Shown: in pieces, positions 16,063 through 39,097 of the stretch
Position numbering within the stretch: the first letter of the stretch is position 1
Layout: each line of letters begins with the position of its first letter
Assembly (NCBI GenBank): GCA_018819305.1
Contig: JAHJQO010000028.1
Location: 1 to 43,622 of the forward strand
Length of the DNA stretch: 43,622 nt
Reading direction: 5' to 3'
From: Nanobdellota archaeon
Lineage (GTDB): Archaea; Nanobdellota; Nanobdellia; Woesearchaeales; SM23-78
Translations under genes and position numbers: made by a program
Notes under the pieces: model-generated
What the model was told of the DNA's origin: nothing
Database searches by the model: none
The model's input: only the letters and a program-made list of their open reading frames with translations

Positions 16063-16187
16063 AAAACCAAACATTTTTGTATCTCTATCTATGATAGAGA
16101 AAACGAAAACCAAAAATTTTTGTATCAACAAAGGCAGAGCCTTTGAGTGCCAAAAGTAAACTTTTGAGCACTTCATCAGAGATGAAG
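16063..16187 (+). repeat. Palindromic repeat array upstream of pelota (copy A)
   Basis: Near-tandem AAAACRAAAACCAAAMATTTTTGTATC copies plus perfect hairpins CTCTATC/TAT/GATAGAG (16083-16099), CAAAGGC/AGA/GCCTTTG (16129-16145), CAAAAGT/AA/ACTTTTG (16151-16166, flanked by GTGC..GCAC) and CTTCATC/AGA/GATGAAG (16171-16187). Confidence 0.85.
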
Positions 16188-37973: not shown

Positions 37974-39097
37974 TTTGTTTCTTCTTTAGGATTCTCTGTT
38001 TCTGTTGTAGTCTGTTTTTCAGGCTTGCTCAATGATTCATCATTGGCACTCAAAGGCTCTGCCTTTGATGTGCTCAAAGATTTATCTTTGGCACCTAAAG
38101 ACTTTGTCTTTGGTGGCTCAGAAACTTCTGTTTCTGTTGTAGTCTGTTTTTCAGGCTGCTCAGAAACTTCTGTTTCTGTTGCACCAGACGCTTTGCTTCC
38201 AGATGGTTCAACTTGTTGTGAATCAACAACATCTTGCTTTTCTTCTTTTACAATAACTTCTTTAATAGGTTTTTCTGATTGAATTGGTTGAACTACAGAT
38301 TCTGACTGAATCTCTACGGGTTTTTTCTTTTTGGCCGGAGATTTTCTTTTTTTCTTGGCGACTTTCTTTGAGTCATCATCTGGAGTTTTTTCTTTTGCTT
38401 TAACTTTTTTCTCTTCTTTCATCTCCCTGACTTTCTCAAGAATTTCTTTTTCAGCTGAAGGATCTTTGATTTCTTCTATTTTTTCAACAATTTCTTCATC
38501 TTCTTTTTTCAAGGTGATTTTATCTGGAAGTATAATATCTGGAGTCATAATACTGACTTTTATTCCAATCGTTCCGCTTTTGAGATTAGCACTTGTATAT
38601 GCTATTTTCATTTCAGAAACTGCAATGTCACCACATTTTTTCAGGTAACCTTGGAAAAAACGCCATGTTTTAGCTCTTGAACTTGGAACTTTTCCAGAAA
38701 TAAGTATTTCAACACCAAAAGCTCCCGCACTCATTATATCAGACATTGCTTTGTGACCTATGCCTTTGAATCTTGCTGTTCCAAACCTTTCTAATGAATT
38801 AGCAATCATTTCAGCAATTATATTAGCATCAAGACCAATGCTTGTAATTTCCTCAATCTCTATTTGAGGGTTCTCAAGTTTAAAGACCTCTTTCAGATCT
38901 TTAGTGAGTTTAGTAATATTAGATCCTGCCCTTCCAACAACCAAGCCAGGCCTGCTTGTACTTATAATTATTTTTTCTCCAAGAGGAGTTCTTTGAAGTT
39001 TTACATCACTAAGTCCAACCCTGCTTAATGTGCTCTTAATATACTCTTTAATTTCAAATTCCTTTATGTTTTGGTTGACAAACTTCCTCTCGATCAT
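37970..39097 (-). CDS. rps3: Ribosomal protein S3 with ~180 aa low-complexity C-terminal extension
   Basis: KH domain IISTSRPGLVVGRAGSNITKLTKDLKEVF...; extension contains the palindromic element peptide and duplicated PEKQTTTETE blocks. Confidence 0.95.
   Translation of the reverse strand: MIERKFVNQNIKEFEIKEYIKSTLSRVGLSDVKLQRTPLGEKIIISTSRPGLVVGRAGSNITKLTKDLKEVFKLENPQIEIEEITSIGLDANIIAEMIANSLERFGTARFKGIGHKAMSDIMSAGAFGVEILISGKVPSSRAKTWRFFQGYLKKCGDIAVSEMKIAYTSANLKSGTIGIKVSIMTPDIILPDKITLKKEDEEIVEKIEEIKDPSAEKEILEKVREMKEEKKVKAKEKTPDDDSKKVAKKKRKSPAKKKKPVEIQSESVVQPIQSEKPIKEVIVKEEKQDVVDSQQVEPSGSKASGATETEVSEQPEKQTTTETEVSEPPKTKSLGAKDKSLSTSKAEPLSANDESLSKPEKQTTTETENPKEETK
37995..38157. repeat. 31-nt perfect direct repeats (37995-38025 and 38127-38157) flanking the palindromic array in rps3
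   Basis: TCTGTTTCTGTTGTAGTCTGTTTTTCAGGCT occurs twice. Confidence 0.9.
38030..38111 (-). repeat. Palindromic repeat array inside the rps3 coding sequence (copy B)
   Basis: Four adjacent hairpins: CAATGAT/TC/ATCATTG (38030-38045), CAAAGGC/TCT/GCCTTTG (38051-38067), CAAAGAT/TT/ATCTTTG (38075-38090), AAAGAC/TTT/GTCTTT (38097-38111), with GGCACT, ATGTGCT and GCACC linkers. 25-nt core identical (reverse complement) to 16129-16153. Confidence 0.88.

Follow-up and report, generated by a model that had tools for sequence, protein, structure and literature searches.

A mobile double-hairpin DNA element is very probably inserted in-frame in the ribosomal protein S3 gene of a Woesearchaeota archaeon

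The C-terminal tail of ribosomal protein S3 in this archaeon very probably carries a mobile element. It is inserted in-frame as a tandem pair. The window (the whole stretch of DNA analyzed, 43,622 nucleotides) is contig C16 of a 1.53-Mb draft genome (G000), a single assembly with 57 contigs and 82% completeness. According to Pfam and the open reading frame, its rpsC product presents a KH domain, the S3 C-terminal domain, and a long low-complexity C-terminal tail. The insert lies in this tail (Table 1). It is flanked by GAGC (38116-38119) on one side and AGCC (38022-38025) on the other, and SKAEPLSANDESLSK is the S3 region at its junctions. The same gene contains an empty duplicate of the site. 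There, GAGC (38158-38161) abuts AGCC, whereas the downstream copy has 90 nt in between; the S3 repeats follow a 132-nt period with exact repeats of 31 nt. The inserted segment folds far better than dinucleotide shuffles (z of -5.8 as RNA and -6.7 as DNA), and none of 200 shuffles equaled it. Judging from the open frame, it would be read as 30 extra residues of the tail.

The first-pass annotation had described a palindromic element at 38030-38111. The palindromes are real, and the four hairpins with their linkers are present as written, within the S3 frame. However, that span falls short at its ends, where the terminal CACC and some bases of GAGCA are missing. Each unit is a double hairpin about 45 nt long, and two such units stand in tandem in S3. 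The same annotation reported a 25-mer shared with the region upstream of pelota. This 25-mer, CAAAGGCAGAGCCTTTGAGTGCCAA, is indeed common to both places, and a 21-mer within it occurs at only two sites of the window (S3 and pelota), against 0.00 expected. It was further proposed that both loci read it in the same frame. The frame upstream of pelota is open, but its translation is unsupported. The first in-frame ATG falls after the element, so the pelota copy is probably untranslated.

Table 1. Features of the S3 gene and of the second element copy in the window.
Feature	Coordinates	Strand	Basis
rpsC, ribosomal protein S3, 375 aa	37970..39097	-	ORF; Pfam KH_2 and Ribosomal_S3_C
Insert, 90 nt, 30 codons, two tandem 45-nt double-hairpin units	38026..38115	-	Bounds from empty duplicate within S3; folding z-scores
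S3 unit 1: CACC-[AAAGAC AAA GTCTTT]-AGGTGCC-[AAAGAT AA ATCTTT]-GAGCA	38071..38115	-	Model R1, E 4.3e-7
S3 unit 2: CATC-[AAAGGC AGA GCCTTT]-GAGTGCC-[AATGAT GA ATCATT]-GAGCA	38026..38070	-	Model R1, E 7.9e-12
31-nt repeat AGCCTGAAAAACAGACTACAACAGAAACAGA, directly downstream of the S3 insert (3' side, filled site)	37995..38025	-	Repeat family D4, 100% identical to 38127-38157
Identical 31-nt repeat upstream of the S3 insert, the empty duplicate of the site	38127..38157	-	Repeat family D4
Second copy, upstream of pelota: CAAC-[AAAGGC AGA GCCTTT]-GAGTGCC-[AAAAGT AA ACTTTT]-GAGCA	16126..16170	+	Model R1, E 3.7e-14

The S3 gene was found in 39 of 40 relatives, and the five genus-mates with an S3 match have tails without the element peptide. 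The comparison of S3 with close relatives, suggested in the first-pass annotation, shows the absence of the segment in these five genus-mates. Nevertheless, it does not give a precise boundary. S3 tails vary too much between species to be aligned, so the clean empty S3 site is the internal duplicate only. The cleanest boundary is in Elp3. In this genome, Elp3 presents 17 extra residues, TQRSKASGVPKENIPLS, between FPSQNMRTE and ITKNSALIRELHVYG. They are precisely absent from 12 aligned relatives, six of them genus-mates. In a comparison with the solved Elp3 structure (PDB 6ia8), the inserted residues correspond to a gap in the acetyltransferase part. It means that a conserved gene received the element in-frame while its orthologues are empty.

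Two further types of site show filled and empty forms. The first is a unit resembling a non-coding RNA, TTATAAAATCGTAGGCAGAATACCCACAAATTTATTTGTGGGATGAATGCCG, with 12 empty copies, including two from G000 itself (C41 and C57). It is filled in C55 of this genome and in three others (G037, G063, and G070), with the element in a hairpin loop. A filled site reads ACAAATT / CAAC...GAGCA / TATTTGTGGG, with an insert of 50 nt. The second is an IS605-like 3' end. In genome G002, one of them reads GTAC followed directly by CAGCATACC, and in a second one GTAC is followed by the element (L145 versus L154). The element ends agree at all four site types (Elp3, the ncRNA-like unit, S3, and the IS605-like 3' end). 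We found no target-site duplication at the filled and empty junctions, except for a possible 1 nt in Elp3. Because filled and empty sites exist at these four types, insertion is demonstrated, and it was precise and without target duplication.

The ncRNA-like unit recurs across several families of the order and has a TATA-like start (L217-L228, L231-L233, and L107). Its positions in G000 are C41:5107 (L228), C57:24297 (L232), and C55:3515 (L107). Some copies lie just upstream of restriction-type genes, and one is right after an apparent tRNA 3' end. The copies scanned have no Rfam match. The unit may be an unreported RNA gene or the end of a mobile element. The IS605-like 3' ends, ACCTCGTCCTTTAGGGCGAGGT, are repeated in G002 and G006 (L145, L154, L161, L162, L166, and L170). 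They carry the element inside or beside them, and several are located at contig ends. As a parent of the element they were rejected, since the filled and empty forms in these two genomes show that it was inserted there, and no large ORF crosses the repeat. The GTAGGCAGAATACC unit was also considered as a parent. Most of its copies have no double hairpin; therefore, it is a target and not a source.

The element measures about 42-53 nt, with the anatomy 5'-CAnC-[hairpin 1]-(G/A)GTGCC-[hairpin 2]-GAGCA-3'. We built a covariance model, R1, from 15 copies. In these sequences, standard pairs occupy 97.9% of the paired cells, and 8 of 16 pairs have changes on both sides. Double changes amount to 35, against 9.7 in shuffles. 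The covariation score is 0.443 compared with 0.180 in shuffles, and 0 of 500 shuffles scored as high. These counts, which related copies inflate, show that the pairing is kept and not what keeps it. The linker bases GTGCC and GAGCA are invariant in the 15 sequences while the arms change; most model copies were picked by the 10-mer TTTGAGTGCC, so the fixed GAGTGCC is partly a matter of choice, but GAGCA was not chosen. Folding and covariation together establish the palindromic, hairpin-forming character of the unit.

Copies of the element are dispersed in unrelated genes and in intergenic DNA. The 10-mer TTTGAGTGCC occurs 19 times in the genome and once in the reversed control, and the linker pair GAGTGCC...GAGCA 18 times against none. 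Nearly all of these matches have the form CAnC-[hairpin 1]-GAGTGCC-[hairpin 2]-GAGCA. The covariance model finds 27 places at E<1e-5 in the genome, both coding and intergenic. Some of these places were outside the training set, among them Elp3, eS6, and the ncRNA-like unit. Some copies adjoin apparent tRNA gene ends (L102 and L105 in G000, L139 in G104).

Across the order, 75 of the 244 genomes searched give a match at E<=1e-3, and this genus has most of the copies. The order-wide search scored about 24 candidates per genome, so its high copy numbers are floors: at least 25 in G002 and at least 20 in G006, both of this genus, and at least 14 in G047. Copy numbers are low in G005 and G001. Where distant genomes of the order gave weak matches (E of about 1e-5 to 1e-3), these were set aside, since AT-rich hairpins can score by chance. 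A sample of 197 genomes from across the phylum contains 17 with a match at E<=1e-5, and every one of these belongs to the same order; for most of the non-matching genomes of this sample, kinship is not shown. Judging from the model matches, the element occurs in this genus of Woesearchaeota and is sparser in the rest of the order. One genome, G147, has four copies with near-equal model scores (L120; C4:34-85, C11:116-167, and C38:15386-15437), two of them close to contig ends. They are possibly a recently active subfamily.

By Pfam, the proteins that host the element are EndA, aIF2-gamma, FKBP, an AAA ATPase, GrpE, eS6, S3, and Elp3. A Lys-rich protein without a Pfam family is another host. 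The element occupies the N-terminal tail in EndA (three copies), the N-terminal extension in aIF2-gamma, and the C-terminal tail in both FKBP and the AAA ATPase; GrpE has two copies. In G002, FtsY-like and prefoldin-like proteins, named by eye and not by Pfam, also carry it. All 13 copies in protein tails of this genome have 45 nt, in the sense direction and in the same phase. The length is a multiple of three in all 14 coding copies, compared with 8 of the 13 non-coding copies (Fisher p 0.016). It is exactly 45 nt in 13/14 and 3/13, respectively (p 0.0003). Both p-values are optimistic, since not all copies are independent: those of GrpE, EndA, the Lys-rich protein, and S3 are in tandem, and aIF2-gamma, FKBP, and EndA share flanks. 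In another case (L156, contig C44 of G002), an ORF of 532 residues crosses the element in antisense near its C-terminus. The end of this protein may consist of element sequence from the opposite strand.

Read in sense within genes, the element mostly gives the peptide (S/T)KxKxLSAKxKxLS. The sites are low-complexity tails and one loop of Elp3. The first-pass annotation expected this peptide in tails of unrelated proteins, and it is there in eS6, aIF2-gamma, GrpE, FKBP, EndA, the AAA ATPase, and the Lys-rich protein. A segment ancestral to all relatives, with no other protein containing the peptide, is not what we observed. Such recurrence might suggest selection on the peptide, which could serve, for instance, as a short motif of flexible tails; the nucleotide palindrome would then be a by-product. 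At least seven unrelated protein tails show it in one frame, and the tails match by protein comparison: aIF2-gamma with FKBP, EndA, and GrpE by their common tail, and eS6 with S3. However, linkers and pairing are the same in the intergenic copies. The Elp3 insert gives a different peptide, its first hairpin being read in another frame; therefore, the peptide is not the conserved thing. The eS6 and aIF2-gamma proteins of four genus-mates, like the S3 proteins examined, also lack it. We regard selection on the peptide as very improbable.

The tandem copies bear on a further explanation. Replication slippage, template switching, or homologous recombination, acting between the many short hairpins and the GAGCA/GTGCC linkers, might both expand the arrays and move them, with no dedicated transposase. 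Arm-to-arm copying would then give covariation without selection. We consider this possible, although on the unlikely side, an estimate that concerns array growth and overlaps with the mobile-element reading. Tandem expansions are common (the period of S3, the two units of GrpE, and the three of EndA), and a locus with four hairpins (L118) has a relative with two (L117). Y1 transposase counts do not follow copy number. Likewise, eS6 and S3 agree in their outer hairpins, in the hairpin that precedes them, and in about 20 bases that follow, and the middle of the segment is 45 nt longer in S3. Therefore, either S3 would have received a second element inside the first, or the eS6 form would be an S3-like double that lost its middle. 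Nevertheless, recombination poorly places a lone element at an unrelated site, such as Elp3 or the ncRNA-like unit, where the ends are exactly the same and the empty homologues have no element. It accounts for the growth of arrays better than for founding insertions.

The intergenic copies allow us to weigh whether selection maintains the unit in many transcripts as a functional signal at the RNA or DNA level, for example as a leader regulator or as the binding site of a protein that recognizes RNA or hairpins. Its fixed linkers and covarying arms would be expected of a signal. In leaders, several copies immediately precede a start codon, and two of these lie in similar short leader ORFs (L111 and L113). 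Of 49 intergenic copies, 22 have both neighbors oriented like the element. However, the other three arrangements have nine copies each, convergent genes included, and a dedicated 5'-leader regulator was rejected because intergenic copies occur in every arrangement. Moreover, the S3, eS6, aIF2-gamma, and Elp3 sites are not common to genus-mates, and no Rfam family matches the element above the gathering score. A functional signal is, in our opinion, improbable. As for the leader ORFs, the one in G002 (L111/L140) is MVNNKNTVFESTKSKILSAKNKFLSIPKFREVKIW and the one in G006 (L113/L160) is MVNCKNKVFESTKSKILGAKNKFLSIPKFSKVKIW. Each contains the element and ends at the start of the next gene, which is porB-like in G006. 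In both genomes, a further hairpin carries a Shine-Dalgarno-like sequence in its loop.

Returning to the mobile-element reading, the element would be a short, non-autonomous, mobile double-hairpin DNA. An enzyme acting in trans would recognize the hairpins, probably in single-stranded DNA, and join the element at new sites. Selection would then remove the copies that break genes. In S3, the extra unit could stem from a tandem duplication or from one element having inserted into another, and the pair would be a tolerated passenger, adding 30 residues to a flexible tail. Insertion without target duplication and hairpin ends are features of palindromes mobilized by IS200/IS605 or RAYT enzymes, and both are observed here. 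Nevertheless, a Y1 (HUH) transposase is not supported as the mobilizer. The only Y1 (IS200-type) transposase of this genome (L080, C57:28136-28516) is interrupted by a TGA stop, and G006, G047, G038, G104, and G157 have none, though they are rich in copies. The best model match near Y1 genes is weak (E 0.008). The element ends match the ends of Y1 transposases poorly, this being the class compared, and no autonomous partner was found among the Y1 transposases. The target-site duplication of a MITE is not seen either: the Elp3 and ncRNA-unit junctions have none beyond the possible 1 nt in Elp3. A more daring proposal seems doubtful to us. It supposes an enzyme that moves single-stranded double hairpins by the fixed linkers alone, with the arms rewritten in concert and the fold kept. 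The flexible tails of ribosomal proteins and chaperones would be landing pads that turn selfish DNA into protein.

These sites would offer a direct case of selfish DNA becoming protein sequence in the core translation machinery of an archaeon, with empty sites of the same genome for comparison. The concerted change of the arms and the fixed linkers raise a testable question: whether selection by a hairpin-reading enzyme or template switching keeps the arms complementary. There is also a warning for annotation: a long tail on a DPANN ribosomal protein or factor can consist of mobile-element sequence instead of a conserved domain.

In the literature searched, which took in few subscription papers, we found no report of such an element in Woesearchaeota or DPANN. 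The double-hairpin family with covarying anatomy and its DPANN host appear new in that literature. This agrees with the first-pass annotation, which knew of no such family in DPANN. However, coding palindromes were already reported in the archaeon Methanocaldococcus jannaschii (Suyama, Lathe and Bork 2005, as cited in PMC2996958), so the absolute novelty is smaller than was implied.

Other families of small palindromes share part of this anatomy. REP and other GTAG- or CGTC-tagged palindromes have alternative complementary stem residues and form dimers and clusters (PMC3733652). They resemble the element in these traits and in their small size. In contrast, they carry the GTAG/CGTC tag at one end and are mostly extragenic, while the element has CAnC and GAGCA ends, GAGTGCC between its hairpins, and no link to Y1/RAYT. 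The yeast GC clusters (GC42), about 40-50 nt long, are small mobile DNA that forms hairpins; their structure is conserved, and no enzyme is known for them (PMC4478555). Double-hairpin elements of Allomyces are cited in the same paper. The anatomy of these mitochondrial elements is closer to the one described here than that of Rickettsia palindromic elements (RPE). Nevertheless, they belong to organelle genomes, with GC-rich stems and other linkers, and are mostly intergenic. In yeast, VAR1, which is the mitochondrial relative of S3, is likewise interrupted by GC clusters.

RPE are short palindromic repeats dispersed within and between genes, in-frame in conserved protein genes and also in RNA genes (PMC10969869, PMC2229807). 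The parallel with them, drawn in the first-pass annotation, holds as to kind: our element is palindromic, dispersed, and in-frame in conserved protein genes, with empty orthologues in Elp3. A guanylate kinase of Rickettsia that bears an RPE has been expressed and its activity assayed (PMC2229807). However, RPE measure 105-146 bp, with a long stem-loop and terminal inverted repeats (PMC2229807). The units described here, of 42-53 nt and typically about 45 nt, have two small separate hairpins, fixed linkers, and covarying arms, and belong to another domain of life. Membership in the RPE family was rejected on this basis. The M. jannaschii element also consists of coding palindromes in archaeal genes; the likeness is one of description, as far as the citing paper gives it, and its host lineage is distant. 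Protein-coding palindromic repeats are a recognized kind that comprises RPE, a similar Wolbachia family, and, from the account in the citing paper, the M. jannaschii element (PMC10969869, PMC2229807, PMC2996958). This is the nearest kind to the S3 element, which works like these repeats and is not an RPE.
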